Part shown: one piece after another, positions 7,988 through 60,601 of the stretch | How positions within the stretch are numbered: position 1 is the stretch's first letter | Layout of the letters: each line of letters starts with the position of its first letter | NCBI RefSeq assembly: GCF_004102725.1 | Contig: NZ_LHQS01000002.1 | Coordinates: forward strand, 487,984-551,983 | Source: Methanoculleus taiwanensis | GTDB taxonomy: Archaea > Halobacteriota > Methanomicrobia > Methanomicrobiales > Methanoculleaceae | Direction of reading: 5' to 3' | Length of the DNA: 64,000 bases | The notes under the pieces: generated by a model | What the model was told of the DNA's origin: nothing | Database searches by the model: none | Seen by the model: only the letters and a program-made list of their open reading frames with translations | Translations under genes and position numbers: made by a program

Positions 7988-8818
7988 ATGCTGCTCTTGA
8001 CCTCTTCCACGCTCTTTCGCTCCGGCATTCTCGCGATCGCTCTGATCTTTACGGTCTTTACGATGGGTTACCTGCTCGGGAGCCTCCCGGCCGGCTCCGC
8101 GCCGGTGGACGGGCGCGACGTACTCTATCAGGTCTCGACGATCGACGCTCTGCTGCAGGGCGTGTACGACGGGACGGCGTCGATCGAGACCCTCGCCCGG
8201 CACGGCGACTTCGGCCTCGGCTGCTTCGATGCGCTCGACGGGGAGATGCTCGCCCTCGACGGCGTCTACTACCAGCTGCCCGTCGACGGCCGCGTCCGTG
8301 TACCTCCACCGGATGCGACGGTTCCGTTCGCCGCCGTGACCTTCTTCGATCCGGACATGATCGTTCCCCTGCGGAGTGGCATGAACCTGACCGGACTTGA
8401 GGCGGCGGTCGATGCGGCCATCCCTTCAAAGAACTACTTCTCTGCGGTTCGGGTAGACGGCACCTTCGCCTCCGTGACGGTGAGGAGCGTTCCACGGCAG
8501 GAGAAGCCCTACCCGCCGCTTACCGAAGTGGTGGCAGAGGAGCCGGTTATCTTCATCCTCGAGAACGTCAGCGGCACTGCCGTCGGCTTCCGTTCGCCTG
8601 CGTTTACCGCCGGGGTGAACGTTCCGGGCTACCACCTTCACTTCATCACCGACGATCGCACGGCAGGCGGCCACATCCTCGATCTTCGTATCGAAGAAGG
8701 GACGGCCGCGGTCGATAGCACCGCGGCGTTCTTTCTCGAGCTTCCCTCCGGAGAGGATTTCGCCGGGGCGGACCTCACCCTCGATCAGCAGGAAGCCCTC
8801 AAAAAAGTAGAGCGGTAA
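7988..8818 (+). CDS. Alpha-acetolactate decarboxylase with N-terminal membrane anchor
   Basis: The body matches alpha-acetolactate decarboxylase (BudA/AlsD), which turns 2-acetolactate into acetoin. Zinc ligands are visible in YHLHFITDDRTAGGHILD (the HxH pair plus the later H), with FDALDGEMLALDGVYYQ and E-rich beta segments upstream. Unusually, a hydrophobic stretch (GILAIALIFTVFTMGYLLG) near the N-terminus predicts a membrane anchor or uncleaved signal, placing the catalytic domain outside or at the membrane. An in-frame GTG at 7967 or a TTG at 7997 could be the real start. The sequence supports the family strongly; the localisation is inferred. Confidence 0.88.
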   Translation: MLLLTSSTLFRSGILAIALIFTVFTMGYLLGSLPAGSAPVDGRDVLYQVSTIDALLQGVYDGTASIETLARHGDFGLGCFDALDGEMLALDGVYYQLPVDGRVRVPPPDATVPFAAVTFFDPDMIVPLRSGMNLTGLEAAVDAAIPSKNYFSAVRVDGTFASVTVRSVPRQEKPYPPLTEVVAEEPVIFILENVSGTAVGFRSPAFTAGVNVPGYHLHFITDDRTAGGHILDLRIEEGTAAVDSTAAFFLELPSGEDFAGADLTLDQQEALKKVER

Positions 8819-8820
8819 GG

Positions 8821-9270
8821 TTAGCGGACGATGAGAACCGGGGGTTTCATCTCTCCGGCAACCTCTTCGAAGAGGGTACTGATCCGGTGCTTCCCGCTCC
8901 GGCCGTACGCACCCATGACGACCAGCGAGTACTCGCCGGAGTTTGCCTCCTGGATCACCTCGTCGCGGGTAATGCCCTCGACGATCTTCGACGAGCACCT
9001 GATCCGTTCCCTGTTGTAGTGATACAGGATCGCTGCGAGTTCGTCCTGGATATTCTTCTTCATGTCCCGCCAGATCTGGACTTCGTAGTCCTTCACCCGG
9101 TCGCAGATGCCGCTCTGCGCACAGAAGTTAAAGGCCATCGCTTTGGCCTCCCTGATATCGAGTACCGAGAAGAAGACCACTTCCGCTCCTTTTCGCTTCG
9201 CAATCGTGATTGCGTGCAACGCTGCTTTCTGGCTCCATTTGGAGCCGTCGAGGAGAACGAGATACTTCAT
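8821..9270 (-). CDS. Universal stress protein, UspA family
   Basis: A 149-residue single-domain Usp. The N-terminal strand KYLVLLDGSKWSQKAALHA and the ATP-binding loop GAYGRSGKHRIS are typical of the ATP-binding subgroup. It is the last gene of a three-gene minus-strand cluster: Usp-like protein, ArsB/NhaD-type permease, this Usp. The 3-bp gap to the permease stop suggests cotranscription and a regulatory role on the transporter, which is inference. Confidence 0.88.
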   Translation of the reverse strand: MKYLVLLDGSKWSQKAALHAITIAKRKGAEVVFFSVLDIREAKAMAFNFCAQSGICDRVKDYEVQIWRDMKKNIQDELAAILYHYNRERIRCSSKIVEGITRDEVIQEANSGEYSLVVMGAYGRSGKHRISTLFEEVAGEMKPPVLIVR

Positions 9271-41346: not shown

Positions 41347-41563
41347 GCCGTTCACCTATCTGTTGCGGTGTTGTCGCCGTGCTCTCGCACCGCGCAAATC
41401 TCCCTGGGCTCCCGCAGGTATAAGTAATGAGTAGAATCGGCATCTCTGTTATGCGTTGCTCATCGGTACTGCAACGCGAAATCCCATGCACGTATCCAAA
41501 GCCTCACTGAATATCGTATGGTTCAGGCTTCCTGATTCAGTCTTCGCCGCCGACCTACCCGGG

Positions 41564-41652
41564 CGTCGGACTTAATACATCCAATCGACAATAGATATAG
41601 GATCTTTTCGAGCGAGGGTAGCCAAGCCCGGCCAAAGGCGGTGGACTTAAGA
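41564..41652 (+). repeat. Upstream copy of a tRNA-Leu leader plus 5' tRNA half
   Basis: This ~89-bp stretch is about 90% identical to 41708-41795. It contains the leader (CGGACTTAATACATCC and the GATATAGGATCTTTT box) and then tRNA-Leu sequence from 41612. The D-stem is GCC/GGC, fully paired, and the copy stops at 41652 immediately after the anticodon loop, with no 3' half following. It looks like a tRNA-Leu gene broken at the anticodon loop. Confidence 0.75.
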
Positions 41653-41707: not shown

Positions 41708-41795
41708 CGTCGGACTTAATACATCCAATTGATAATAGATATAGGATCTTTTGAGCGAGGGTAGGTAAGCCCGGCCAAAACCGGCGGACTTAAGA
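41708..41795 (+). repeat. Downstream copy of the leader plus 5' tRNA half
   Basis: Second copy of the repeat at 41564-41652, here continuing into a complete tRNA-Leu gene (41755-41839). The D-stem differs between copies by compensating changes (GCC/GGC against GGT/ACC), so the two tRNAs were distinct functional genes or have diverged under selection. Confidence 0.7.
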
Positions 41796-41839
41796 TCCGT
41801 TCTCGCAGGAGTCCGTGGGTTCGAATCCCACCCCTCGCA
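41755..41839 (+). tRNA. tRNA-Leu (anticodon TAA)
   Basis: An 85-nt class II tRNA. The acceptor stem GCGAGGG pairs with CCCTCGC and A follows as discriminator; CCA is not encoded. The D-stem is GGT/ACC, and the anticodon arm GCGGA-CTTAAGA-TCCGT gives anticodon TAA. A long variable arm follows, then the T-arm GTGGGTTCGAATCCCAC. A TATA-like GATATAGGATC box lies about 20-30 nt upstream. It marks the left edge of the accessory region. Confidence 0.95.
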
Positions 41840-41948: not shown

Positions 41949-43874
41949 TTAATACTGCGCGATCTCAGGATAACTTTGATCTATCAAATCAAACATGCCT
42001 TGGACAACAGTAAAGGCCGGTGCATCATCCGGATAGAAGAACTGCAGCCTTAACCATGTACCGTCTTTAGTCTTTTGTTCCCAAAAGGTTGAATCTGGCA
42101 ATCGTTCAAATGGTTTTTGTTTCAAATCCCTGATCATTGTTTCAAATTGTGGAGCCCGTGCTTTATTGACAGCAAGCTCAACGCTGAACTTCTTCTCTTG
42201 AGGGAAATGGCAGAAATAATACATTACACCGGGGGGCATCTCCTTGATTTTCACGACATAATTTTCTTTGCTGCTCGTACCACCTTTTCGGAACAAAGGT
42301 CCTGCCATTTCCCTGTATGTTTCAATGAGGTTCTCGAATTCGGGGTGATACTGCTTTTGGGCTTTAGCAGGGATCCTTTTTTCAGGTTCCTCAGGTTTGG
42401 TTTTTCCCGGCAGGTTTTCCGCTATTGTGGCAGTACTTTGGTGTGTACCCTCTACGTGTACAACAAAATCGATGCTGGGGCCGCGTCGGGTATATTTCCG
42501 CACATCTGCTAATGACGAACGACATTTCTCCCCATAATAGTAGTACAAGCCAGAACTGATGTACGTGACTTCTGGTGGACATCGGGAAGCAAGTTCATTC
42601 CATTCAGTATACCATGAGCGGTACCTGTCCGTGGTATGGGGATGCTGGAGAATAATTACCGGTTTTTCTTGTGTGATGAGTTGATCGATCTCTTGGTGTA
42701 CAGTTTTTCGCCAGGTACTTCCCGGCACAGTATTAGCAGCCGCTCTCCCGCGGTTGCTGAACATTTTTAGATCATGGCACCCAAGAACCATTACCTTCCC
42801 AATTGGGATTTGAATGAAGTGAGAAGAAAGATCTGATACTCGAATCAGCCGGTTCTGTTGTGGGGAATCCGGATAGGATTTTCCCGTCCAGAAATACTGA
42901 TTGGTTTTCAGATCAACCACAGCTACAAATTCAACTTGGTATCCGTTACTTTTCGTTTCATCCGCAGAGTCAATTCCGATAGTGAGATAATCCGCATGAC
43001 GTGCAAGGTCTGACCGCAGCTTTTCATCGAGGAGCCGGTCACAGTACTCTTGGGCAGTATTACGGAGCAGGGTAAGGGTTTCTTCAGGAGGATGCAGGTT
43101 ATCGCTGGGTGCGGGAAAGTGTTCCGGCCAAGGAAACCGAAGAAATGCTCCTGGTGTTACGAAAAACGCAACGCGATCTTGAGTAGGCCACTGCTGTATG
43201 ATGTCTTCCATGAGAGCCTTTGCGCGGGTAATATTTCCTTCCCAAGGGCCAGCAATGATGACTCTTCCGAACTTCGGATTTGGATCAGCAATAGCCTCAA
43301 TATCTGTGTTCCTTTGACGCTCTGAGATAATATTTTTCATTTTCTCCCTGTCCTCATCTTTGCTCGGATCCATTCGGCACCACTCCCTTTCTTTCGCGTA
43401 TAACCTCACCGTCGGCAAGAACCCCTTGATCTCCGGAAGGAAATCCCGAAGTGTGTCATACCAGGCCCGTTGCTCATCGCGGAATGGCGGTTCATCGTCA
43501 TGCGCATGGATTTCATCGCAATGCTTCACCCAGGCTTCCCGCGAAAACCCGGTTTTAAGATCGGAAGGATAGTAGGAAAGGGCAATCTTCCGTGGTTCGG
43601 TGAAATGCTGGGACTCGTCAAATTCGACGATAAAACCGGGCTCCGGCACGAAATAATCCGCTTCAATATTCCGGGCCCTGACAAACTCCGTGGAGCCCCG
43701 GCAATTCTGAAGAGCGGAGTAAATCGTTGACAACTGACCATAAATTCGTTGCCCATGATAATCCTCTGGCAACGTGCCGATCTTGATCCGGTAGTTGCGG
43801 CGAACTTCCCCGTATATCTCTCGGAGCAATCTCTCTACTGTATCCTTGCACACGGAACACCGCTCGTTATGCAT
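41949..43874 (-). CDS. Large protein with N-terminal PD-(D/E)xK-like nuclease segment, candidate defence effector
   Basis: A 641-residue protein of no named family I can identify. Residues about 70-95 (ADYFVPEPGFIVEFDESQHF; D73, E84, D86, H90) resemble the core of PD-(D/E)xK/DUF559-type nucleases. A CxxC is at C6/C9. The middle part contains YLTIGIDSADETKSNGYQVE and a Rossmann-like IPIGKVMVLGCHDLKMF. The last ~120 residues (YFCHFPQEKKFSVELAVNKA; final FFYPDD) recall DUF4268-type C-terminal domains. It is the third gene of a minus-strand operon, overlapping the second by 8 bp, with GGAGG before its ATG. Nuclease activity is inference. Confidence 0.65.
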   Translation of the reverse strand: MHNERCSVCKDTVERLLREIYGEVRRNYRIKIGTLPEDYHGQRIYGQLSTIYSALQNCRGSTEFVRARNIEADYFVPEPGFIVEFDESQHFTEPRKIALSYYPSDLKTGFSREAWVKHCDEIHAHDDEPPFRDEQRAWYDTLRDFLPEIKGFLPTVRLYAKEREWCRMDPSKDEDREKMKNIISERQRNTDIEAIADPNPKFGRVIIAGPWEGNITRAKALMEDIIQQWPTQDRVAFFVTPGAFLRFPWPEHFPAPSDNLHPPEETLTLLRNTAQEYCDRLLDEKLRSDLARHADYLTIGIDSADETKSNGYQVEFVAVVDLKTNQYFWTGKSYPDSPQQNRLIRVSDLSSHFIQIPIGKVMVLGCHDLKMFSNRGRAAANTVPGSTWRKTVHQEIDQLITQEKPVIILQHPHTTDRYRSWYTEWNELASRCPPEVTYISSGLYYYYGEKCRSSLADVRKYTRRGPSIDFVVHVEGTHQSTATIAENLPGKTKPEEPEKRIPAKAQKQYHPEFENLIETYREMAGPLFRKGGTSSKENYVVKIKEMPPGVMYYFCHFPQEKKFSVELAVNKARAPQFETMIRDLKQKPFERLPDSTFWEQKTKDGTWLRLQFFYPDDAPAFTVVQGMFDLIDQSYPEIAQY

Positions 43875-44286
43875 CCTCTTCCTCCGCGATCAACTTTTCC
43901 ATCTCTTCACGCCCTGCAATCTTCTTCAGCTCGATTGGTTTCCTACCCCTGAACATTACAAAGCCCTCATAGACCAGGACCGCAGCGATCGCCGATGCGT
44001 GGCGGGGGCTGAACGATGGAAATGTTTCCCGGATAAATGAACCAAGGCCGGCAGGGTCCGGGTCGGTCATACTGGCACCGAGCAGGTACCAGCAGCCTCG
44101 CTCGATGAAGAATGTATCAAGGATTGTCCGGATCATCTCATTCGACAGTTCAAACTTGAGATCACCCCACAGGACCAGCCGGAACGGCGGATCCAGATGG
44201 ATCGTTATTGTCTGGCCTCTCCCACTCAATGGCTGTGTGGTGTAACAATTTGGCTGAATAGCCTGTTCACAGATCTTACTGGCCAT
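43867..44286 (-). CDS. Hypothetical protein, middle gene of nuclease operon
   Basis: A 139-residue protein starting at the ATG at 44286, which has GGAGG 6 nt upstream and overlaps the preceding gene by 11 bp. Visible features are a beta-rich front half (QTITIHLDPPFRLVLWGDLKF) and an acidic C-terminus. No family is recognised. Its tight coupling to the OB-like and nuclease-like genes implies a shared function. Confidence 0.6.
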   Translation of the reverse strand: MASKICEQAIQPNCYTTQPLSGRGQTITIHLDPPFRLVLWGDLKFELSNEMIRTILDTFFIERGCWYLLGASMTDPDPAGLGSFIRETFPSFSPRHASAIAAVLVYEGFVMFRGRKPIELKKIAGREEMEKLIAEEEDA

Positions 44287-44773
44287 GCGATTCCTCCGTA
44301 TCGAAGACCTCACCGAACCAGGAATACGATTGCGGGACGCTTAGCATAATCGATTTGTGATTCATTTTTCCTCCCACCAAATGCATGGTTTTGTATCCAG
44401 ACTGCCCGGAAATTTTCACGACATTCCTCGGAAACGTGAGCCGGTAATCGAGGCTGGATTTTCGTGCGAGCCGATCTTCGATCCGCTGGCCGAAATAGCC
44501 CTTGAAGTATGACCGCACCCCGGCCGTGAACTGAACAACGTCGCCCCGGGCAAATTCCCCGATTGCGTCGAATCCGGCCGTGTAGTTGATCCAGATGTGA
44601 TCGGCAAGCGCCCTTCCCTTTACGGTTTTCAGGTTCCGCAGCAGGATGCTCCGGCCGACAATTCCCCTGGATCGATAGATCCCGTACCTCTCGAAGGTCG
44701 CGACAAACCGCGACTTTTGCCCTTCCAACGGTTGCAGTTCTGTCCTCATTGTGCCCACCCCCGGGCTGATCAT
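44276..44773 (-). CDS. Hypothetical protein with OB-fold-like pattern, first gene of nuclease operon
   Basis: A 165-residue protein (157 if the ATG at 44749, which has GGGTGG 5 nt upstream, is used). The segment FARGDVVQFTAGVRSYFKGYFG and the earlier GRSILLRNLKTV show the alternating strands and basic residues typical of OB-fold nucleic-acid binders; this is a fold guess. The TATA element TATATAAAAA at about 44793-44802 is shared in the 60-bp gap with the divergent CARF-like gene. Confidence 0.6.
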   Translation of the reverse strand: MISPGVGTMRTELQPLEGQKSRFVATFERYGIYRSRGIVGRSILLRNLKTVKGRALADHIWINYTAGFDAIGEFARGDVVQFTAGVRSYFKGYFGQRIEDRLARKSSLDYRLTFPRNVVKISGQSGYKTMHLVGGKMNHKSIMLSVPQSYSWFGEVFDTEESHGQ

Positions 44774-44833
44774 CTATCTTTCAGGAAAAACGATAAGTAG
44801 TTTTTATATAGCATCGTTAGCAATCTTAGCATC

Positions 44834-45637
44834 ATGGGGCAGAATACCGGATTGGAAAAGATCGTTCATATCATTCCGCTCGGCCATGAGATTGATCGTG
44901 CTGTAGTCCCGTTTCAGGAGCAAACTCCTTACCGGGTCTACCTCCTCACCGTGACTAAGAATCCTGATCTCGACCAAAACATGATAGCACGACAGCAGTA
45001 TTTTGTCGAACAAGTGAAGGCCCGGCTGGACAAAACTACCGAAGTGATCACGATCAATACCAATATGTTCGAGCTCCAGGACGTGATCAAGACCCTCTCC
45101 GGCATCATCAGGAAAGAGAAGGAGCAGGGAAACCGCGTTTCGGTGAATATGTCTGCGTGCGGCCGGCTAACGTCGGTAGGTGCAATGGTGGCCGCAATGG
45201 GGCATGACGTTAACCTCTACTATGTCATGGCACAGGATTATGCCAAGACCGAAGAAGAGATCAACCTTCACGGGCTCAGTATCTGCCCGACGCTGGACGT
45301 AAAGAGAATTGTAAATTTTGCTTTTGTCCAGCCCGATGAAGTTGGTAAGCAGATCCTCGCTTTCCTCTACAGGAAAGGCAAACCCATGAGAACCATCGAT
45401 ATCTTTGAGGTTCTTCGGGACCAGGACGTACAAGGGTTCGACGTGTTATTCTATGAAGTTGAGGAGAAAAAGAAACGCGGTGTCCAGAGCAGGCAACTGA
45501 TGAAGCTCGACAAAACAATTCTTACCAAACTGGCACGGGACAAACTGATTACGCGGGAAAAGCGGGGGCGGAACGTCTTTGTTACACTTACGGAGTCTGG
45601 CAAGTATATGGCGTGTCTGAGCGGATTGCTGGAATAG
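44834..45637 (+). CDS. CARF-like / winged-helix transcriptional regulator (HFX_2341/DUF6293 type)
   Basis: A 267-residue protein. The first ~150 residues have a Rossmann/CARF layout: VHIIPLGHEIDRAVVPF, then YRVYLLTVTKN, and VNMSACGRLTSVGAMVAAM at the position of the CARF nucleotide loop. The last ~80 residues form a winged helix-turn-helix (LDKTILTKLARDKLITREKR). This matches the haloarchaeal HFX_2341-type regulators as I know them. CARF domains sense cyclic oligonucleotides in many defence systems, but no CRISPR genes are in the window. It is divergent from the nuclease operon across 60 bp, so it probably regulates that operon. Confidence 0.75.
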   Translation: MGQNTGLEKIVHIIPLGHEIDRAVVPFQEQTPYRVYLLTVTKNPDLDQNMIARQQYFVEQVKARLDKTTEVITINTNMFELQDVIKTLSGIIRKEKEQGNRVSVNMSACGRLTSVGAMVAAMGHDVNLYYVMAQDYAKTEEEINLHGLSICPTLDVKRIVNFAFVQPDEVGKQILAFLYRKGKPMRTIDIFEVLRDQDVQGFDVLFYEVEEKKKRGVQSRQLMKLDKTILTKLARDKLITREKRGRNVFVTLTESGKYMACLSGLLE

Positions 45638-45668: not shown

Positions 45669-46006
45669 TCAGACCATCATAGCACATGCCAAGTGGATCA
45701 ACCCAAGAAATGGGTGCTCATAGCGTTCAAACCGGGGAGTAATCTTCTTGAACGCCTCTATCCAGCTGAAGAATCGTTCAATGGCGCTGCGCTTCTTGTA
45801 GAGTTCCGGATCGAACCAGCATGGCCTTCCTCGCTTCGGGTGTGTTCGGGATCTCCGGTTGACCGGGATATTGCCCTTGATCCCTCGTTTCCGATTGTAT
45901 TGGTGGATCTCCCGGGAATCGTAGGCTGGACATGTGCGGTTTCGTCGGGGGGGAGATATTTCCGAATGATCTCCCAGAGTTCGTCGTCGATTTCATGGAA
46001 GGCCAT
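45669..46006 (-). pseudogene. IS5-family transposase remnant with internal deletion
   Basis: The start (MAFHEIDDELWEIIRKYLPP) is the N-terminus of IS5-like transposases. After a seven-C run and a frame change the reading jumps to the catalytic C-terminal part: AYDSREIHQYNRKRGIKGN, PKRGRPCWFDPELYKKRSAI, ERFFSWIEAFKKITPRFERY and a final HLACAMMV followed by a stop at 45669. The central ~100 codons, including at least one catalytic aspartate, are missing, so the element is dead. Clear terminal inverted repeats were not found. Confidence 0.8.
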
Positions 46007-46191
46007 GATCCTGAATATTATCTAAAGTGATTTATAAATGTGGGCCGACCTCTGATGTACTATCTACTATTTTCCCATAGAATACGCAGTGTTCCGGTCA
46101 ATAATAACTGTTCGATTTGGATTTTTTATAATATAGTTATCGATTTTTGGTATCGGGCAATCTTAATTAATTGCAGAATAAAGCTCATGCT

Positions 46192-47190
46192 ATGCATGCG
46201 CCAGAACCAGAGAACTGTTGGCGGGGTGTAATTCTATTCGGAAAGAATTCTGCAACATACAAAATGGCGCTCGGAAGGCTACTCCTCGATTACGCCTACA
46301 ACGGGCAAGATAAAGTGTCTCTGGACGATCTGGCAAATGATTTTTTATCCCTGTACATTGAGCGAACAGAAAATAACAAGCCACAAATGGGACTTACCGG
46401 GAAAAAGACCGTCACGGAACACCAGATTGATCTGATACGCTGCGGGAATAAATCGTTTGATTCCGCACTTGAAGTTGTCAGGACACAAGCACTTGCTGGA
46501 ATGGTTCTGGTGAAATTCAACAACCTATTTGGTAGGCAAATTCCCCAGCCGTTCTACTCCTTTATTCCGGGAGACAATGAAATTGTGTTAAACTCAAACT
46601 TGCTTCGGCTAGTTGATTCAAAGACGGAGAAGGGCATCTTTGAAAAAGAAATCTTGGGACGATGGGATCTCCTTGAGCATTCCTATGAGAGAACGCATGC
46701 CGTCCCCATTTCAATAGACGAGCGGCTGGAGTATCTAATCAATGCCGAGGAGAGAAAAAATCTCACCCCACTCATCCCAATGCTTGAAGGATACCAGCAG
46801 GGACGGTGTTTCTACTGTGGAGAGCCGCTCTACGACATACATGTCGATCATGTCATTCCATACTCTGCAATCCATCACAATGATGTCTGGAATCTTGTGC
46901 TTGCTCACGGAGAGTGCAACGAACAGAAGTCTGATACCCTCCCGTCCAAAGCGTTTATCGAGAAATTAATCACAAGGAATGAGTATTACATCTCCAGCTC
47001 ACACCCACTCAAAGATGAAATTATCCGAAAGACGGGTAAAACCCGCGATGCGCGGGAAAAAGAAATATATCGGCAATATAACGATGCTTACCACTTCAAA
47101 AGACGTTTTTGGAACGGAAACCCACACTACGACCCTGGAAAAGACAAAGAGTTCATCTACTGGTTGAGATACTATGCTCCAAAAGTATGA
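46192..47190 (+). CDS. HNH endonuclease
   Basis: A 332-residue protein. The HNH/treble-clef site is CFYCGEPL near residue 206, then VDHVIPYSAI (D219, H220) and WNLVLAHGECNEQK, a complete set of zinc and catalytic residues. The N-terminal ~190 residues have no recognised domain. Sequence is AT-richer than the core genome. The start is uncertain; a TTG at 46171 is in frame. It overlaps the MazG-like gene by 17 bp, so the pair is translationally coupled. Confidence 0.83.
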   Translation: MHAPEPENCWRGVILFGKNSATYKMALGRLLLDYAYNGQDKVSLDDLANDFLSLYIERTENNKPQMGLTGKKTVTEHQIDLIRCGNKSFDSALEVVRTQALAGMVLVKFNNLFGRQIPQPFYSFIPGDNEIVLNSNLLRLVDSKTEKGIFEKEILGRWDLLEHSYERTHAVPISIDERLEYLINAEERKNLTPLIPMLEGYQQGRCFYCGEPLYDIHVDHVIPYSAIHHNDVWNLVLAHGECNEQKSDTLPSKAFIEKLITRNEYYISSSHPLKDEIIRKTGKTRDAREKEIYRQYNDAYHFKRRFWNGNPHYDPGKDKEFIYWLRYYAPKV

Positions 47191-47488
47191 CAAGGCAATA
47201 CGGGACAGAATTCCTGAAATAATCGCCGCAGACGGAAGTCAGTGCAGTATCGAGAAGGTATCTGATGAGATTTTTCTCAAGTATCTTGAATTGAAATTGG
47301 TTGAAGAGTCAAACGAATTTATCGCCTCCGGCTCTCTCGAAGAGATCGCTGATTTGCTCGAAGTAATCTATCGGATAATCGAGTTAAAGGGTGCCTCACT
47401 TGAGGAGATCGAAGAGTTGAGAAAGATCAAGAAATATGAGCGCGGCGGGTTTGACGAGAATTTAATTCTCAAGTCCGTAACGAGGTAA
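47174..47488 (+). CDS. MazG-like nucleoside triphosphate pyrophosphohydrolase
   Basis: A 104-residue all-alpha NTP pyrophosphohydrolase. It starts YDKAIRDRIPEIIAADG, followed by KLVEESNEF and EEIADLLEVIYRI, which carry the EExxE and ExxD metal-binding acidic residues of the MazG/HisE superfamily. Such enzymes hydrolyse (d)NTPs to monophosphates. Its overlap with the HNH nuclease suggests a two-gene unit, possibly coupling nucleotide depletion and DNA cleavage; that is inference. Confidence 0.8.
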   Translation: MLQKYDKAIRDRIPEIIAADGSQCSIEKVSDEIFLKYLELKLVEESNEFIASGSLEEIADLLEVIYRIIELKGASLEEIEELRKIKKYERGGFDENLILKSVTR

Positions 47489-47993
47489 TTGCTCAGAAAT
47501 AGCCAGAATGTATGCTCCGCCCTCTTCATGGCTGTGGTCGCTGTGACACTCTTTTTCCCGCCTACCTCTCTGCCAATGCAGCGTGTGGGTGGCGGTTCTT
47601 ATCTCTGGTTTCCCTCTCTGTAGGTGGTCTCAGTCCATACGGTACACCCTGCATTCCCGTGAATACATAATGAGATGAAATTAAAATGGCTGAATTTCAG
47701 TTGAAATTTTGAAAGAGCCTTATTTATCTGGTTGATAAAAACGGCCTCGTTATGTGTCGCTCCAACACGTAACGATGAAGATCTTGTTTCAAATATCCGA
47801 TATTTGGCAACTAAATCGCGATTAAATCCCTATTGTGTCCCCCTTACTTTTACATCGTTATGTGTGATCGGGAATCCAGGGTACACAGTGAAAAGCAGGA
47901 AATAGTGCTTCATCAGATTCCTTTTTCCAATGAGCCTCGTTTATCCCTGTAAAATCAAAAGCCTTTTTTAATTATACACTAAAACTCAAAAAT
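47489..47993. other. Intergenic region with a possible hairpin and repeated CGTTATGTGT
   Basis: About 500 bp, AT-rich in its right half, with no supportable gene. CGTTATGTGT at 47748-47757 pairs imperfectly (9 of 10) with ACACGTAACG at 47765-47774 across a 7-nt loop, and CGTTATGTGT occurs again at 47856-47865. TTTTTAATTATACAC near 47966-47980 is a TATA-like element for the helicase gene. Confidence 0.4.
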
Positions 47994-49958
47994 ATGGCCG
48001 AATTTATCCCTGATCGCCTCCCAGGGAGAGCGAGTAGAGGGGAGGAGCGTACATTCAGTATTCTGAAGAAGTTGCCTGACGACTACCTCGTTTACTATGA
48101 ACCCAACATCGACAACCGACGGCCTGACTTCATCGTGATCGCACCGGATCTGGGTGTTATCGTCATCGAAGTGAAGGGGTGGTACCTCGATGACATCGAA
48201 AGAGTAAGCGACAGTGAAGTTGTTACCTTGTATGACGGGCGCCCGAAGGCCGAAGTACACCCTCTTACACAGGCGCGGAACTACCAGTGGAGGCTTGTAA
48301 AAGCATGCGAGAAGAACCCGAGGTTCTCGCACCTGCTTCACAAAGACGGCCCACACAAGAACAGATTCACCTTCCCGTTCGGCCATTTTGTCATACTCTC
48401 GAATATTTCCCAGGAACATCTCCAGAATTATAGAGGGCATGATCTCTCGGCTGTCTTCCGGCCTCAGAATACCATGACGCGGGACGTGCTCGTGAGCCTT
48501 GAGAATGCATCCCCGCAGGAGATTGCCGCTAAACTGAGATCGTACTTTGACCCGTTCTGGCGCATCACGCCCCTTTCCCAGGAGCAGATCGATGTGCTCC
48601 GCGCTATCATCCATCCGGAGATTATCTTAAGTTACGTCCCCTCATGCGTAATGCCTGCTCAAGACCCGGTGCAATCAGCCCCCGCCGAGAATGACACTGT
48701 CCAAGAACCAGAGGATGAGTACGTCTTCTCCTATGCGCAAGGAGTGTGTGAACCAAAGGTGAGATCACTGAAGGTCCTGGACAGACGGCAGGAGAATACC
48801 GCCAGGAAGATCGGTGATGGGCACCGGATCGCCTGCGGTGTGGCCGGGTCTGGAAAGACGGTCATTCTGGTCGCACGGGCACGCTGGCTCCACGACCGCG
48901 ATCCCGAGGCAAAGATTCTGCTGCTCTGCTATAACGTCTCCCTTGGAGCATATTTGAAAAACATACTCGTCGGCTATCCACGGATAACCGTCACTCACTT
49001 CGATGGCTGGGCAAAGCAGAACGGCGTTATCCGGAATAGGTGCGACCCGGTTACCGGCCTGGTCGAGGATGACGAACATCTTGGTCATCGCTTAAAGGAG
49101 CAACTGTCGAGCCGTGTCGGAGATTTTCGTGCGTATGATGCCGTTCTGGTCGACGAAGCCCAGGACTTCCATCCGATCTGGTTCTCGTGCATCCTTCTTG
49201 CGATGAAAGACCCCTACGATGGCGACCTGCTGATCGTGTGCGACGGCAACCAGGGGATCCGGCCGGTCGGGACGGTCAGCTGGAAATCTGTCGGCATCAA
49301 GGCGCAGGGTAGAACGATTCACCGCGCCCTGGATCTCGATCGGAACTACCGGAACACCCGCGAGATCCTGAAGCTCGCCTCACACTTCGCCTCGCAGGAT
49401 ACTCAGTTTAATGAGGACTCGTTCGGGATCATCCCGGTCGACCCCTACCAGGCGCAGCGAACAGGTTCGAAGCCGTTTCTCGTGCAGTGTGCGGATCACC
49501 ACGACGAATGCCAGAAAACACTGGAGATTGTGAAAGGGCTTCTCGCCGGCAGGCTCCCGGACGGCAACGCTATCGAGGATCTCCACCACGAAGAGATCGG
49601 GATACTCTACCGTAGGGCTTCGGCACCGGACAAAGAACTACTTGGCGGGCTTATCGAGGAGATCCGCCAATATGCCCCTGTTGTCTGGATCAATGAAGAT
49701 GCTTCATCACGGGCGAGAGTGCTGGACGAGGGCATCAAGATCCAGACGGTTGATTCTGCAAAAGGGCTGCAGTACCGGGTGGTGATCCTGCTGTGGCCGG
49801 ATGCGTTCGTACCGGTCAGAGCGGGCGATCTGCCGCTTGAGAACAGCCGGTTCTATGTTGCGCTCACGCGGGCGGAGGATGTGTTAATTATCTTGCACTC
49901 GTCAGAGAATGAGCACGTCAACAGAATGTTGGCGTCGGATGATGTCGTGATCTGCTGA
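47994..49958 (+). CDS. NERD-domain nuclease/UvrD-like SF1 helicase
   Basis: A 654-residue protein. Residues about 15-130 are a NERD domain (RRPDFIVIAPDLGVIVIEVK, with the D, E and K of a nuclease-related core). Walker A GVAGSGKT is near 283-290, DEAQD near 387-391, LDRNYRNT and the C-terminal TVDSAKGLQYRVV and RFYVALTRAED are UvrD-family motifs. NERD-helicases are often in phage-defence loci but also occur elsewhere. It stands alone between the HNH/MazG pair and the GIY-YIG gene on the opposite strand. Confidence 0.87.
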   Translation: MAEFIPDRLPGRASRGEERTFSILKKLPDDYLVYYEPNIDNRRPDFIVIAPDLGVIVIEVKGWYLDDIERVSDSEVVTLYDGRPKAEVHPLTQARNYQWRLVKACEKNPRFSHLLHKDGPHKNRFTFPFGHFVILSNISQEHLQNYRGHDLSAVFRPQNTMTRDVLVSLENASPQEIAAKLRSYFDPFWRITPLSQEQIDVLRAIIHPEIILSYVPSCVMPAQDPVQSAPAENDTVQEPEDEYVFSYAQGVCEPKVRSLKVLDRRQENTARKIGDGHRIACGVAGSGKTVILVARARWLHDRDPEAKILLLCYNVSLGAYLKNILVGYPRITVTHFDGWAKQNGVIRNRCDPVTGLVEDDEHLGHRLKEQLSSRVGDFRAYDAVLVDEAQDFHPIWFSCILLAMKDPYDGDLLIVCDGNQGIRPVGTVSWKSVGIKAQGRTIHRALDLDRNYRNTREILKLASHFASQDTQFNEDSFGIIPVDPYQAQRTGSKPFLVQCADHHDECQKTLEIVKGLLAGRLPDGNAIEDLHHEEIGILYRRASAPDKELLGGLIEEIRQYAPVVWINEDASSRARVLDEGIKIQTVDSAKGLQYRVVILLWPDAFVPVRAGDLPLENSRFYVALTRAEDVLIILHSSENEHVNRMLASDDVVIC

Positions 49959-49985
49959 GCCCCTCATTAGAGGATTTTTCTTTTG

Positions 49986-50963
49986 TTAGTGTCCCAGAAA
50001 CTGGAATCGCGGAACTGTTTTCGTGGCAGCGTAAAACGCCGCAATAAGATCATTTTCTAACTCTTTCAGCTGATGAGGCAGGACTGTCCCCGGCTGCAGA
50101 CAGTACGCAAAGGCGACCTCTCTCCCCTCCCAGGACTTCTGTCCATGGGTCGCTAATCTGCTCCTCATTGTTTTTGTCTGCCCGATGTAGCAGAGCTCGC
50201 CGGTTGCGGCATCGAGGATCTTATAGACCCCGGGCTTGGCGGGAACGTTTGCCGTCTTCTGGTCATCGAACACCCGCGGGTCTGTCCAGGAGAGTGTCAT
50301 CCAGTCACGATCCGTAGGATTCCCGTGCAACCGGAGAGGTGGAAAGCTTGCTCCTCCGGCGGGGTTGATGGCGCCGTCCGGGAGCCGGCCACCGCGTTTC
50401 TTGCTATTCTTGTCCCGCGACTTCAAATAGTTTGGATGGAACCGCCCGAAGTTGCAGAGGGTCGATGCTCTGAACTCCAATCGGTACTGCCACAACAGGT
50501 AGCACTCAAGCCCTTCTCGCTCTCGTTTGACGAGAGCCGGGTCTTTTCCTGAGTCGGGTGAAACCGGAGCCGCCGAGCATGCGAAGTCCATCCCAGTGGC
50601 ATCCCTCCACGCCCAGAGGGACGGGGCAGCGGTGTGCGGGTCGTTATAGGGCATCAACTCCGTTGATTTCCGATACTCCCGGAGTTCTCGCAGCCGTTGC
50701 CGCAGTGCCCGGCCGGTCTGGCCGATATAGACGAGGCACTCTTTATCCAGTGGTTTGATCCGGTAGACGCCTGGCTCGGAGAGTGTCATTGCGAGCTCGT
50801 GCGGCGGTGTGTCGAGGGGCACCCAGGGTGACCAGTCCAGATCGCACCAGTCTGTTTCAAGAAATGACGTAACACCCATACTATCCGCATGTCCCCTGCT
50901 ATTCAATCCGTAGCAATCCATCTCTTCCATGAGTTCTTTCTGGCTGGTTTCAACGAACTGCAT
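49986..50963 (-). CDS. Protein with two GIY-YIG nuclease domains
   Basis: From the ATG at 50963 the protein is 325 residues. Two GIY-YIG cores are visible: GVYRI (65-69) with YIGQTGRALRQRLREL (79-94), and GVYKI (245-249) with YIGQTKTMRSRLATHG (259-274). The conserved arginine and tyrosine are present in both. Such tandem domains imply paired or dimer-like cutting. The start lies 4 bp after the stop of the EVE-HNH gene, so the two are one operon. Confidence 0.82.
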   Translation of the reverse strand: MQFVETSQKELMEEMDCYGLNSRGHADSMGVTSFLETDWCDLDWSPWVPLDTPPHELAMTLSEPGVYRIKPLDKECLVYIGQTGRALRQRLRELREYRKSTELMPYNDPHTAAPSLWAWRDATGMDFACSAAPVSPDSGKDPALVKREREGLECYLLWQYRLEFRASTLCNFGRFHPNYLKSRDKNSKKRGGRLPDGAINPAGGASFPPLRLHGNPTDRDWMTLSWTDPRVFDDQKTANVPAKPGVYKILDAATGELCYIGQTKTMRSRLATHGQKSWEGREVAFAYCLQPGTVLPHQLKELENDLIAAFYAATKTVPRFQFLGH

Positions 50964-50967
50964 TTTT

Positions 50968-51933
50968 TCATGTTTCTGGACTCGCCAAATCCTTCTCAAA
51001 GATGTTTTCTCTGTGATACCGTAAGTAAGGGATCTGCTCAGGTCGGAATAGGCCCGCGTTAGTGTTTGGATCAATACACCACACTTTCAAGATCGCTTCA
51101 TTCAGACTGCGGGATACTAATAGTGCTCCGTTGTCCTCAAAGCTGATGTATCCTTTATCGAAAAGGTGGTCGATGTGTGGAGCTAGCAACAGACCATTAT
51201 TGCCATCAAGCCTTTCTTTATCTGTTGCATCACGCCACGGCTTTACGTGACTTGCAATTAGGTGCTTTGATTGTGTGACGCCTGTCACGCGGCATTTCTT
51301 TTCCAGTCTCTCAAGTTCAGTTCTAAATCGTCCTTGTCCTCGCCGGGAGAGCACTAATTGTTCTTTTTCGGTGGGTGGTATCTTTGGGTTTGCATTGATC
51401 CTAGCTTCTTCTTCTTTCTCGTGAGATTCTCTTTGAAAATCTCTGCGTAACCCGGTGAGATCTTGTCTATCTTCCGCAGCAATTTTAGAAAGTAGGAGAT
51501 TTGCCATTTCGTTCGGCAGTTGAACTAAGTAGAATGTCTGAACCCCATCCCCTGCCTTTTTCCCTTCCTCTATCAGCGGTGAATACTTTTCGGGTAAGGT
51601 TGGTTTAATCTCATCGAAAAAATCTTTCGGCTTGATTGGCTGCTTTAATTCATAGTAAAGCACTTTCACGAGCCAACCCTCTTTCCTCCAATAATCACCG
51701 GCGGGTTTTAGTTCCTCTGGCTTTTCATTTGTGTCTGCAGGGTCTGTTGCTACTCCTACTGCTTTGATGAATGTGCTGGAGTAAGAGAATACAAGATCTC
51801 CGGGGCTCACCTGCGTCATATTGTCATAGGAAACGTTCCTTCTCCCATCTGCGTTGACTTTCGGTGACCACAGGTACCCACCCAGTAACTCATGTTTATA
51901 CGTTTGATTTTGGTTGACCCACCAGTAGTTCAT
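50968..51933 (-). CDS. EVE-domain HNH endonuclease, likely modification-dependent restriction enzyme
   Basis: A 321-residue protein from the ATG at 51933 (AAGGA just upstream). Residues 1-150 follow the EVE/PUA-like layout (NYWWVNQNQTYKHELLGGYL, VSPGDLVFSYSS, IKAVGVA), a fold that binds modified bases. Residues about 215-275 are an HNH_2 nuclease: CRVTGVTQSKHLIASHVKPW, then NGLLLAPHIDHLFDKGYISF. This architecture is known in modification-dependent (type IV) restriction. It is followed 4 bp later by the double GIY-YIG gene. Confidence 0.82.
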   Translation of the reverse strand: MNYWWVNQNQTYKHELLGGYLWSPKVNADGRRNVSYDNMTQVSPGDLVFSYSSTFIKAVGVATDPADTNEKPEELKPAGDYWRKEGWLVKVLYYELKQPIKPKDFFDEIKPTLPEKYSPLIEEGKKAGDGVQTFYLVQLPNEMANLLLSKIAAEDRQDLTGLRRDFQRESHEKEEEARINANPKIPPTEKEQLVLSRRGQGRFRTELERLEKKCRVTGVTQSKHLIASHVKPWRDATDKERLDGNNGLLLAPHIDHLFDKGYISFEDNGALLVSRSLNEAILKVWCIDPNTNAGLFRPEQIPYLRYHRENIFEKDLASPET

Positions 51934-52130
51934 AAGTCCTTGTAAGGAGTTAGAGTGCATTAAATTGCTTATTCTCGCTTAAGAGCGGATGAAAGTACAT
52001 GGCGGCAGCAGGGTGTGTCTGGAACGGATTAAGAGGGCGGTGAAAATTGCTGTTTTGCAAAAGAATCAATTTATGTCTCTCATGACAAAATCGTATTTGC
52101 TGATCACCCATAATTGATTGGAGTTTATCT

Positions 52131-56164: not shown

Positions 56165-59100
56165 TTATTGCACAGATACAGGGAGTGAGATCCCCATTTC
56201 ATACAGTGTTTCGAGGGCATCGACTGCTGTCCGCCGCACATCCGATCTCTTGTGTTCCAGCAACTTTAGGATAAATTTGACAGTCGTCGGATCTACCTTC
56301 TCGGTAAGTTTTCCTAGGGCATACACTGCCGCAGACCTTACGCCCCTGTCTGGATCCGTCAGCAACTTTGCGATGTCCCTGACAACTTTCTGGTTTATTG
56401 CTTCTGGCAGATTCCCAAGGACATCTACTGCCATATGTCGGACACTGGGGTCCGAATGCTCCAGTAGATTTGCGATGTCCTTGACGGTCTCCTGATCTAC
56501 CATCGCGGCGAGTTTCCTGATAGCATCAGCTGTCGCAGACCTTACGCCACGGTCTGGGTCCTTTAGCAATTTTGCAATTTCCTTGACGGCCTCCCGATCC
56601 ACCTTTTCGAAAAATTTTCCGAAGATATCGACGATCGCATGCCGCACATCTGGATCTGTATCCTTCAGCAGTTTTGCAACGTCCTTGATGGTTTCCTGGT
56701 CTACCTTCCTGGCGAGTGTCTTGAGAAAGTAAACTGCATTAGATTGCACAAAACGATCCGGATCCTTCAGTAGTTTTGCAATGTCTTTAGTGGTCTCTGG
56801 GTTCAATGCCCCTGGAAGATTTCCGAGGGCACTTATCGCCGCATACCGCACAGTGGGATCTGGATCCTTCAGCAGCTTTGCAATGTCTCTAACTGTCTCT
56901 GGATCCACCTTCTCGGCGAGCTTTCCAAGGGCATATACCGCTTTAGATCGTACACCGCGGTTTGGATCTTTCAGCAATTTTGCAATGCCCTGAACGGCCT
57001 CTGGGGTTACCTTCTCAACGTGTTTCTCGAGGGTACTAACTGCCGCATGCCGCACATCTGGATCTGTATCCTTCAGCCTTTTTGCAATGTCTTTGATGAT
57101 CTCCCGATCCCCGATATCTGGGCATTCCCCGAGGGCTTCGACTGCCGCATGCCGCACAGCGGAGCTGTGATGCTCCAAAAGCTTTGCAATCTCTCTAACG
57201 GTCTCCGGGTTTAATGCTTCCGGAAGACTCCCTAGGACACTTGCCGCTGCACGCTGCACACCGTAATTTGTATCCTTCAACAGTTTTGCAATGTTCCTGA
57301 CGGTTTCCGGATCCACTGTCTCACGGAATTTCCCGAAGATTTTGACTACCGCATTCTGCACATAGGAGACCGGATCCTTCAGCAGTTTTGCAACATTCCT
57401 GACTGTCTTTGGATCCACCTTCGTCGCGAGCCTTCCGAGGGTATATATTGCCGTATGCCGCAGATCGGGATCTGTATTCCTTAGCAGTTTTGCAATGTCT
57501 CTGATGGTTTCCGGGCCTACTTTGTCGATAAGGGTCTCGAGGGCGTGCCCTGCCGCAGACCGGACACCAGGGTCAGGATCTTCCAGCAGTTTTGTAATGG
57601 CTTTGACAGTTGTCGGATCCACTTGCTTGGCGAGTCTTCCGAGGGCATAAACTGCCTTGTATCTCACATCGGGATCTGTATCTCCCAGCAGTTTTGCAAC
57701 GTCTTTGGCGGTTTCTGAATCTACTTTCTTGGCAAGTTTTCCGAGGGCATATACTGCTCTAGATCGCACATCGGGATCTACATCCTCCAGCAGTTTTGTA
57801 ATATCCTGAACTGTCTCTAGGCCCACCTTCTCGACGAGTTTCTCGAGAGCATCCATTATTACATATTGTGCTGAAAAATGCCCGTCCTTCAGCAGTTTTG
57901 CAATGTCTTTGATGATCTCCTGATCCCCCATATTAGGATATTCCCTGAGGGCTTCGACTGCTGCATGCCGCACAGCGGGGTCCGTATGCTCCAGTAGACT
58001 GGTGATGTCTCTAATGGTCTCCGAGTTGCCTGTCTTAGCAAGTTTCCCCAAGACATCAACTGCTACATTCCTTACATTAGGATCTGTATCCTCCAGTAAT
58101 TTTGCAATACTTCTGGCGATTTCTGGATCCACTGCCTCGTGAAATTTCCCTAAGATTTCGACTACCGCATACCGCACGTCGCGATCGGGATCTTCCAGCA
58201 ACTTTGCGATGTCCTTGACCGTCTCATGCTTCACCACACCCGAAAATTTACCGAGGGTACGGCCTGTTGTAGACTGCACAAGGAAATCCGGATCTTTTAG
58301 CAGCTTTGCGATGTCGCGGATGGCATCCTGATCAACCCTCTCAGAAAGTTTTCCAAAGGCATCGACTGCTGCGGATCGCACATCAGGGTCTTCAGATTTC
58401 AGTAGTTTTGCAATGTTCCTGATACCCTCCTGGTTTACTATCTCAGGGAATTTTCCGAGGACATCGATTGCCGCATGCCGCACACTGGGATCTGGATCTT
58501 TTAAGCACTGTATAATCCTGAAAATTGCCTTGTTTGTTTCATCCTCGGGGATTCTAGGAGCCCGCGCGAGTTGGATCATAGATTCTATTGCTCTTGGTTT
58601 TAGTGCAGCATCCTCGATGTCCATAAGATTTTGGAGGATTTCCTGCCAGATTTTAATGTCAATATCCCGCACTTCTGGTACGCATTCCGAGATCAAAAAG
58701 AGGTTTGAACAGATGATATTGTCTTCCTGCTGCAGCAGATCCTTGATACATTCGTTCCCTTTTATTCCTGCAGCGAATTTAATCACTTCTCTCCACTTCG
58801 GATTCCATCGTTCAGAGAAGACACGCTTATAGTAAGATTCGCCTTTTCGTTCTGTTATTAATTCCGCCGCGAGATATTCTTGGAAGGATTGATGTGTGTA
58901 ATAGAAATAGTGTTCTCCCTTTTCAAGGATCAGGTTAATTGGTCCAAGATGAGGGAGTCGATCCATGCGGTCCTCGCCGATAATTTCTTCTACAAATGAG
59001 GCTGGCAACTTCTGGATTACGGGATTATCTTCGCCAAGTGAGCAGTATGAAATTTTTTTCAGATCTTTCCTAACACCCGTTGTACGACTAGCCTTTTCCC

Positions 59101-60601
59101 TGCCGAGTCTCCCATGCTCTGTGATGATGTGGTTTATAAACTGTTTATATAGATCGGTGCGGTTCTGTACGTCCCCAATATTTCCGGTTTCCAGCAGGTT
59201 TTTAACCATAAAAGCAAGCATAGGGATTTTTGTTAAGTGGGGAGCAAAAGAACAGACCGATCGGGAAATATCATAGTACTCACCAAAGTATCGTTTCTCA
59301 TCCTCCGGGGAGTAGAGTTTTAACCTTAAAAATGGTCTTCTGAAGTCTTTCTCGAGGCCAATAACTGCAGAGGGTCGTGAACTGATGACGAAATTATTCT
59401 GACCAACGATTTGAGCAATTTCTTCCGCAATCACACTTGGAGATGTTTGATCTGAGATCTGATCGAGTCCATCCAGAAGAAATACAATTTGCCCCTTCTC
59501 AAAAAAATCAGAGAACAGATCTTCGATGTCTGCCTTGGTGACATAGTAATCCATTCGATTTGCTAATAACAGCTGCTCTCTATATCGCTCTACAAGTTTT
59601 TGTTTTAATGATTCCCACGAATTTGGTCTCCACTTTTCGAAATCAGCGCACTGGATGAATGAGGCAACAACATCGTGTTCGCTATTGAGGCGTGCGCTCA
59701 GCCAGAGCAGCAATGTGCTCTTGCCAGTGCCAACAGACGAAGAAAGAATGTACGATACGGCAGGAGGTTTTAGGTCATTTAAATCGAAGTATTCCCAAGA
59801 TCTTCCATGTTCCCATTCTTCTATCCCAACAGCCAGCAATTCCCTTTTTTCTTTTTCTCTTGGTTTTTTTCCGCATTCGAGGGAAAGAGGAATAAATTCA
59901 TTATTTTGTAGTTTTTGAATTTTCAGTTCTTCTTCTGCCCGTTCAGATATAGAAAATCGAATTTTTTTATACACATCATGAAATTCCTTAAGACACGGCC
60001 ATTTTTTTAAAAGGGGCGTGATAGGTACAAAGGCTGCTTTATTATTGTCAATGATCTCTCTCGAAGTGATTAGCCCAACTACTTTAGTGGTTCGCGTGTT
60101 TATTACTGGACTGCCACTATAACCACTTTGCACGGCGGAAATGCTAAGTCCACTGATCTCCACGGTGGGGGTATTCCCCTCAAAAGTCGGACCGACTATT
60201 CTCCCTTCAACGTGACGACCTGATTCTTGGTAATAGCCCTCTGGATGACCAAAACTGTGACATATATCCCCGCGTTTCCATCGACCGTATACATCAAGGG
60301 GCAAGTATTCACTCGGTCTAGTACACCCAACTAGCTGGAGAACTGCAATATCGGCTTCCTGAATGCAATATTCTGTAATTCTTGCTATTCTTGGCTCGTT
60401 TTCTCCAGGACAGAGGACACTTACAGATTCAGTATTGTGTTCTAAATGATCCTCAATGACGTGATAGCACGTGAGTATGTATCCATCCGGATGGCAGAAA
60501 AATCCGGTGCCTGTACCTAGTAGGCAATCTGAGTTTGGCTCTAGGATGACAACGGCATACTGCCCCAAGTTGTCAAGATCAATTCTCATCATACTTGCCA
60601 T
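56165..60601 (-). CDS. Trypsin-like protease / NACHT NTPase / HEAT-repeat protein, NLR-like conflict protein
   Basis: A 1478-residue protein. Residues 12-200 form a trypsin-like protease with complete triad: H47 (TCYHVI), D84 (EADIAVLQ) and S162 (GYSGSPV). Residues about 270-600 form a STAND/NACHT NTPase: Walker A SSVGTGKST (K294), Walker B IVFLLDGLDQ (D377). Residues 690-1470 are 23 tandem HEAT repeats of exactly 34 residues (typical unit DPETVRDIAKLLKDPDPDVR followed by HAAVDALGKLAEKV). This is the effector-switch-sensor layout of bacterial and archaeal NLR-like antiviral proteins. The ATG overlaps the Trypco1 gene by 13 bp. Dispersed repeats C and D flank the pair. Confidence 0.88.
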   Translation of the reverse strand: MASMMRIDLDNLGQYAVVILEPNSDCLLGTGTGFFCHPDGYILTCYHVIEDHLEHNTESVSVLCPGENEPRIARITEYCIQEADIAVLQLVGCTRPSEYLPLDVYGRWKRGDICHSFGHPEGYYQESGRHVEGRIVGPTFEGNTPTVEISGLSISAVQSGYSGSPVINTRTTKVVGLITSREIIDNNKAAFVPITPLLKKWPCLKEFHDVYKKIRFSISERAEEELKIQKLQNNEFIPLSLECGKKPREKEKRELLAVGIEEWEHGRSWEYFDLNDLKPPAVSYILSSSVGTGKSTLLLWLSARLNSEHDVVASFIQCADFEKWRPNSWESLKQKLVERYREQLLLANRMDYYVTKADIEDLFSDFFEKGQIVFLLDGLDQISDQTSPSVIAEEIAQIVGQNNFVISSRPSAVIGLEKDFRRPFLRLKLYSPEDEKRYFGEYYDISRSVCSFAPHLTKIPMLAFMVKNLLETGNIGDVQNRTDLYKQFINHIITEHGRLGREKASRTTGVRKDLKKISYCSLGEDNPVIQKLPASFVEEIIGEDRMDRLPHLGPINLILEKGEHYFYYTHQSFQEYLAAELITERKGESYYKRVFSERWNPKWREVIKFAAGIKGNECIKDLLQQEDNIICSNLFLISECVPEVRDIDIKIWQEILQNLMDIEDAALKPRAIESMIQLARAPRIPEDETNKAIFRIIQCLKDPDPSVRHAAIDVLGKFPEIVNQEGIRNIAKLLKSEDPDVRSAAVDAFGKLSERVDQDAIRDIAKLLKDPDFLVQSTTGRTLGKFSGVVKHETVKDIAKLLEDPDRDVRYAVVEILGKFHEAVDPEIARSIAKLLEDTDPNVRNVAVDVLGKLAKTGNSETIRDITSLLEHTDPAVRHAAVEALREYPNMGDQEIIKDIAKLLKDGHFSAQYVIMDALEKLVEKVGLETVQDITKLLEDVDPDVRSRAVYALGKLAKKVDSETAKDVAKLLGDTDPDVRYKAVYALGRLAKQVDPTTVKAITKLLEDPDPGVRSAAGHALETLIDKVGPETIRDIAKLLRNTDPDLRHTAIYTLGRLATKVDPKTVRNVAKLLKDPVSYVQNAVVKIFGKFRETVDPETVRNIAKLLKDTNYGVQRAAASVLGSLPEALNPETVREIAKLLEHHSSAVRHAAVEALGECPDIGDREIIKDIAKRLKDTDPDVRHAAVSTLEKHVEKVTPEAVQGIAKLLKDPNRGVRSKAVYALGKLAEKVDPETVRDIAKLLKDPDPTVRYAAISALGNLPGALNPETTKDIAKLLKDPDRFVQSNAVYFLKTLARKVDQETIKDVAKLLKDTDPDVRHAIVDIFGKFFEKVDREAVKEIAKLLKDPDRGVRSATADAIRKLAAMVDQETVKDIANLLEHSDPSVRHMAVDVLGNLPEAINQKVVRDIAKLLTDPDRGVRSAAVYALGKLTEKVDPTTVKFILKLLEHKRSDVRRTAVDALETLYEMGISLPVSVQ
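56190..58535 (-). repeat. 102-bp tandem coding repeat (23 HEAT units)
   Basis: The coding sequence for the C-terminal half repeats every 102 bp without any indel across 22 full units plus a 33-residue first unit. Conserved DNA tracts such as TTTTGCAAT and GACATCGC recur in each. Units beginning with Asn (NQEG, NSET, NPETVRE, NPETTK, NQKVV) fall at positions 2, 6, 14, 18 and 22, and units 6-9 resemble units 14-17, so blocks of four units were duplicated. Confidence 0.85.

Follow-up and report, generated by a model that had tools for sequence, protein, structure and literature searches.

A CARF regulator facing swappable gene cassettes across 9-bp promoter iterons in Methanoculleus taiwanensis and relatives: an apparent defense module

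What does a CARF-type regulator control when the operon opposite it ends in a large protein that no database names? The question is raised by a locus in a 64,000-nt stretch of Methanoculleus taiwanensis contig NZ_LHQS01000002.1 (the window; unless otherwise noted, coordinates are positions in it), where a CARF gene is divergent from genes for an OB-like protein, a 139-residue protein, and a 641-residue protein. An earlier reading of the nucleotide sequence and its translations (the sequence-only reading) had taken these four genes for a signal-controlled defense module. Our analysis supports that proposal: the locus looks like an undescribed, interchangeable defense module, and we assign a probability of roughly 0.6 to its being a CARF-controlled, ligand-switched antiviral operon whose products degrade foreign DNA, a degradation that is probably directed by modification or damage. 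All four genes are present at the places first given, and the divergent promoter region between them holds two further elements.

44834 to 45637, plus strand: CARF–winged-helix regulator gene, 267 amino acids (Pfam and PADLOC).
44809 to 44833, minus strand: three 9-bp direct iterons, GATGCTAA-GATTGCTAA-CGATGCTA, a putative operator that abuts the CARF start codon.
44801 to 44810, no strand assigned: TATA-like element, TTTTTATATA, recognized by its sequence and centered ~28 bp before the CARF ATG.
44276 to 44749, minus strand: OB-like protein gene, 157 amino acids, the first gene of the operon (from the alignment of relatives).
43867 to 44286, minus strand: 139-residue protein gene.
41949 to 43874, minus strand: 641-residue protein gene, encoding a nuclease-like core, a nitrilase fold, and a C-terminal domain.

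The operon genes do overlap by 8 and 11 bp, and ribosome-binding sites were likewise confirmed (GGAGG ahead of the 139-residue and 641-residue genes). The divergent gap was given as 60 bp but is in fact 84 bp, with the OB-like start at the ATG at 44749, because the OB proteins of full-length relatives begin at a conserved MRTxLQ or similar sequence. The regulator is clearly predicted to be a CARF–winged-helix protein, an identity borne out by two Pfam domains far above their curated cutoffs (HFX_2341_N, PF19810, 117.8 bits against 30; DUF6293_C, PF22665, 75.6 bits against 27). It matches PADLOC CARF3 with an E value of 3.8e-95, matches TIGR01884 only weakly (E value, 0.007), and is the single PF19810 match in the host genome. 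Its gene has no Shine-Dalgarno sequence and looks leaderless.

The arrangement recurs in other genomes, and the proposal passes the first refuting test set by the sequence-only reading. All four genes occur together in BL5_bin.12, and in G157 the CARF gene, the OB gene, and the start of the 139-residue gene are followed by the contig end. The CARF, OB, and core genes are found together in L050/L213, L106, and a Syntrophaceae metagenome-assembled genome (L055), and the CARF and core genes in L058/L186 and L061/L188. Because a CARF gene divergent from an OB gene, a core gene, or both recurs in Methanomicrobiales and in the Syntrophaceae genome, we do not regard the arrangement as chance. The OB-like family is kept opposite CARF genes in L038, L050, L055, L106, L133, L134, L136, L174, L189, L201-203, L205, and L207.

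A wider census shows that CARF relatives in this archaeal order, matched in 67 of its 232 genomes, face swappable cassettes. The 50 CARF loci examined, among which three pairs represent the same locus, stand opposite an OGG-like protein with a TPR-OB protein (10 loci), OB with OGG (8), a 96-residue protein, alone or accompanied by a small membrane protein (6), the core alone (4), OB with core (3), OB with OGG and core (3), OB alone (2), a small membrane protein (2), a helicase (2), or other genes (10). We read the 96-residue protein, which has no match in PADLOC, as nuclease-like; a PDC-S37/Hhe-like helicase is among the swapped cassettes. In L192-L200 and L209 the CARF gene lies opposite an OGG-like protein and a TPR–OB protein of 430 to 436 residues, with 9-bp iterons of a TTCAC class. 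Two loci face established defense systems. In L177 the divergent genes encode the cyclase (E value, 4.1e-117) and 2TM effector (E value, 1.5e-61) of a cyclic oligonucleotide-based antiphage signaling system (CBASS), and TGCTAA iterons lie at the start of the CARF gene; in L210 the divergent genes are type I-E cas3-cas8e (Cas3e E value, 7.8e-48; Cas8e E value, 2.3e-92). The defense interpretation gains weight from these two loci, where members of one regulator family, with promoter iterons alike in kind, stand opposite CBASS and type I-E cas genes.

The iterons were first spotted by reading aligned promoters, and their 9-bp period was tested afterwards. Across 25 nonredundant CARF promoters the mean lag-9 score was 11.52, compared with 8.04 ± 0.24 in dinucleotide shuffles (maximum among 300, 8.72) and 8.58 ± 0.28 at random places in the same loci; lags 9 and 18 were the only ones raised. 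The pattern TGYTAANNNTGYTAANNNTGYTA (TGYTAANNN) was present in 10 of 231 genomes and lay at a CARF start in 8 of the 10, and a second class, TCACNANNTTCACNANNNNCACGTGA, was found in 11 genomes with each site 25 to 60 bp from a census CARF gene; hits at CARF promoters are partly there by construction because the patterns were built from such promoters, and the informative part of the search is the near-absence of the patterns elsewhere. The two genomes with a TGYTAA site away from any CARF start carry it inside a Val-Asn-rich coding stretch (G091) and near an Mrp-like gene (G034), and in the host genome the exact TGYTAA pattern occurs at this locus only. The TATA-like element, placed according to archaeal leaderless promoter geometry, is possibly shared with the promoter of the divergent operon. 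That the iterons sit on the CARF side, between this element and the CARF start codon, suggests autorepression together with shared control of the operon.

The operon's largest product, the 641-residue protein, divides into three parts.

43305 to 43874, minus strand: nuclease-like core, residues 1 to 190, a weakly Vsr/DUF559-like PD-(D/E)xK candidate with conserved Cys6, Cys9, Cys119, and Cys166.
42453 to 43304, minus strand: nitrilase-fold domain, residues about 191 to 474 (AlphaFold2 model with Foldseek, and motifs).
41949 to 42452, minus strand: disordered linker and small C-terminal domain, residues about 475 to 641.

In 50 core sequences C6, C9, K10, D73, E84, F85, D86, E87, S88, Q89, H90, F91, R95, and W115 are invariant, and C119, C166, and R132-D133-E134-Q135-R136 are nearly so. 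D73, E84, and D86, which the sequence-only reading had singled out as PD-(D/E)xK-like, are among the invariant residues and follow the order expected of the acidic active-site positions of that superfamily. All 50 core members match DUF7255 (PF23913), a family without an assigned function, and 6 of them match DUF559 (PF04480); the 641-residue protein itself scores 20.4 bits against DUF7255, below the gathering threshold of 27 bits. The core was modeled by AlphaFold2 with a mean predicted local distance difference test (pLDDT) score of 95.4, and its subthreshold Foldseek neighbors are mostly PD-(D/E)xK endonucleases (PA-N, LACV L, AbaSI, and RecE). We infer that the core is a divergent Vsr/DUF559-like nuclease. 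Matches of the core to copper-ATPase profiles (E value, 0.004) were rejected as a coincidence of the CxxC motif.

A nitrilase fold emerged from the full-length model (pLDDT, 83.5), to which Foldseek matched 31 PDB chains at an E value of ≤1e-3, all from the nitrilase/CN-hydrolase superfamily (best E value, 6.6e-7). The proposal also passes the second refuting test of the sequence-only reading, that the protein prove to be a transposon or metabolic enzyme with no nuclease fold: it has no sign of a transposase and its core looks nuclease-like, but a large part of it is folded like a metabolic enzyme. Its relatives can be sorted into three groups according to the C-terminal module. The full Glu-Lys-Cys triad is present in group C alone, whose sister proteins match PF00795 (E value, 4e-11); in group B and in group A, to which the 641-residue protein belongs, Lys and Cys are retained and Glu is replaced by Gly. 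The nitrilase assignment is based on fold in group A, on Pfam in group C, and on motifs in group B, and profile comparison of the three by hhalign gave low probability. The small C-terminal domain is common to NucS-like 345-residue proteins of relatives (L115-L117; PF01939 E value, 2e-4, below the cutoff).

The family is large, modular, and widespread. A scan of genome contigs yielded 78 core-family loci in archaea and many bacterial phyla, and among 84 core-bearing loci, a set that is not deduplicated, the nitrilase is fused to the core in 40 and adjacent to it in 12. The nuclease–nitrilase family is unnamed in PADLOC, Pfam, and NCBIfam, in agreement with the sequence-only reading, which could name no family for it. 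Its members are patchily distributed (25 of 199 genomes of the order), and no relative was found in the viral contigs, phages, or plasmids searched. Many relatives carry an N-terminal extension of ~105 residues that matches ScoMcrA residues 4 to 97 (E value, 2.4e-5), a small head domain without known function (PMC6224610). Two other identities for this extension were rejected: a fused OB protein, for which profile comparison gave no relationship, and a sulfur-binding domain, since the match lies in the head domain of ScoMcrA.

Less can be said of the two smaller proteins. The 157-residue product had no Pfam or PDB match and is assigned an OB fold by resemblance only, and the 139-residue protein was found in no relatives but the nearest. 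The slot held by its gene in the window, between OB and core, is occupied in L050, L106, and L109 by an OGG-like protein; the OGG-like proteins match PF21790 at E values of 0.0044 to 0.11, below the cutoff.

Taken together, these features would fit the following mechanism. A CARF dimer would bind the iterons, repress its own leaderless promoter, and hold the operon low; upon infection, a nucleotide ligand would alter DNA binding by the CARF protein and turn the operon on, and the products would degrade foreign DNA. The OB protein may serve as the nucleic-acid-binding subunit, the 139-residue slot (an OGG-like glycosylase in sister operons) may recognize or open abnormal bases, and the Vsr-like core would be the cutting part; the nitrilase-fold domain could either serve as a platform for oligomers or provide a further enzymatic or ligand-binding site. 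We prefer modification- or damage-directed cutting because in many relatives the core is preceded by the ScoMcrA-like head domain. Gene order, families, conservation, and iterons are computed results; that transcription is ligand controlled, that the products have nuclease activity, and that modified or damaged viral DNA is their target is what we infer. In favor of this reading we count the CARF identity, the conserved neighborhood, the swapping of cassettes with known defense genes, the iterons, the invariant nuclease-type residues, the nitrilase fold, the fusion or adjacency of core and nitrilase, the ScoMcrA head domain of relatives, the subthreshold OGG-like partner, and the adjoining defense island (46171 to 51960), which encodes an HNH protein, a NERD-UvrD helicase, a GIY-YIG protein, and an HNH restriction-like protein. 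The NERD-UvrD helicase matches PADLOC C3a187 with an E value of 1e-82.

Several observations weigh against it. The antiviral role is argued from context and sequence, and the OB and OGG assignments are weak. In the core, the lysine of the (D/E)xK motif is replaced by the invariant Asp86 (E84-F85-D86), and Foldseek returned no significant PDB fold match (best E value, 0.69) that would confirm a nuclease fold. In the nitrilase-fold domain the Glu-Lys-Cys triad is incomplete, Lys332 and Cys366 being kept and the catalytic Glu position being Gly242, and 29 of the 84 core loci have no nitrilase within 3 kb, some of them on short contigs. Finally, a search of the host genome for a type III or CBASS source of the ligand found none: it has no Cas10 (PF22335 search, positive in control genomes), and its sole SMODS match, below the cutoff, is in an open reading frame that looks like a CCA-adding enzyme. 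No convincing CBASS cyclase was found in the host genome by a search confined to SMODS, other cyclase families not having been searched genome-wide.

The nitrilase domain invites a different explanation, abortive infection. In this view the N-terminal core and the OB protein would be sensors of viral nucleic acid, and the nitrilase domain would be a toxic effector that afterwards breaks down an amide or amine metabolite the cell cannot do without. A precedent is DRT1, in which a reverse transcriptase is fused to a nitrilase that has been proposed as the effector (PMC13275509), and the intact triad of group C and the 12 loci with adjacent nitrilase and core genes are in keeping with it. We consider it rather unlikely: the catalytic Glu is Gly in groups A and B, the strongest conservation lies in the nuclease-like core, and solo cores exist. 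The core itself could also be turned toward the host, since a Vsr/DUF559-like core, OGG-like neighbors, and an OB-like protein would suit a nucleotide-sensing DNA-repair or stress operon engaged in base-excision-type repair of host DNA. The patchy distribution, the defense-island setting, and the presence of the same regulator opposite CBASS and cas operons make such a role unlikely.

The regulator might also have nothing to do with its neighbors, controlling only itself and distant genes, with the operon opposite it an unrelated passenger of the defense island. This has a counterpart in Methanosarcina mazei MM_0565, a CARF–winged-helix protein encoded beside cas8b that binds its own promoter and not that of cas8b (PMC7465815); we nevertheless judge it very unlikely here, as the divergent layout and the iterons persist while the cassette changes and the host genome has the exact TGYTAA pattern nowhere else. 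A bolder extension of the antiviral-operon reading would make the promoter an archaeal regulatory "socket," in which the CARF family reads 9-bp iterons in front of interchangeable cassettes, the Vsr-like nuclease of a so far unnamed effector class is paired with a nitrilase-fold domain able to read or process amide or nitrile groups of modified viral bases, and the ligand comes from neither Cas10 nor a CBASS cyclase. Taken as a whole, this extension is improbable.

CARF and WYL regulators of defense have been described in the literature searched, in which we found no paper on HFX_2341; coverage of subscription papers was incomplete, and an earlier description is possible. Csa3, which responds to cyclic oligoadenylate, and MM_0565, which binds its own promoter, share the CARF and winged-helix domains (PMC8844856, PMC8699464, PMC7465815), whereas the HFX_2341/DUF6293 family faces varied cassettes across 9-bp iterons, here in a genome without Cas10. 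The WYL regulators CapW and BrxR (PMC9122588, PMC9122589, PMC9122601) are likewise ligand-type winged-helix proteins beside diverse defense systems; the present regulator differs in having CARF instead of WYL, in being archaeal, and in its iterated 9-bp sites. DRT1 (class 3 UG/Abi reverse transcriptase–nitrilase; PMC13275509) resembles the 641-residue protein in fusing a nitrilase domain to a nucleic acid enzyme in defense, but here a nuclease-like core replaces the reverse transcriptase, the nitrilase Glu is lost in group A, and the promoter is CARF linked; searches of Pfam, PADLOC, and NCBIfam gave no reverse transcriptase match. As for modification-dependent endonucleases, AbaSI is a subthreshold neighbor of the core in sequence as well as in fold, the ScoMcrA head domain fused to many core relatives is absent from the 641-residue protein, and the scanned proteins contain no recognizable SRA, SBD, or HNH domain. 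Type III CRISPR systems are the main setting in which CARF sensors are known, and here a CARF family faces many cassettes, CBASS and type I-E among them. The recurring CARF promoter suggests that different archaeal defense genes become attached to one shared type of ligand-responsive promoter, and the iteron pattern provides a handle for finding further cassettes.

Elsewhere in the host genome there is an apparently solo cas1 gene (L228, positions 8262 to 9191 of that locus, about C2:386261-387190); the surrounding 18 kb contain neither CRISPR repeats nor any further recognizable cas gene. Within the window, the tRNA gene reported beside the block was confirmed and borders the island.

41755 to 41839, plus strand: tRNA-Leu (TAA), island border.

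The 5' part of this tRNA gene and 50 nt of its leader are partially copied upstream at 41559 to 41652 (87 to 94% identical), possibly a duplication or an integration scar. On the other side of the block, a short frame at 45758 to 46006 (minus strand) resembles the N terminus of an IS5-type transposase and, judged by eye, is apparently a remnant. Farther away, 56165 to 60601 (minus strand) encodes a 1,478-residue protein with a weakly trypsin-like N terminus and HEAT-like repeats.

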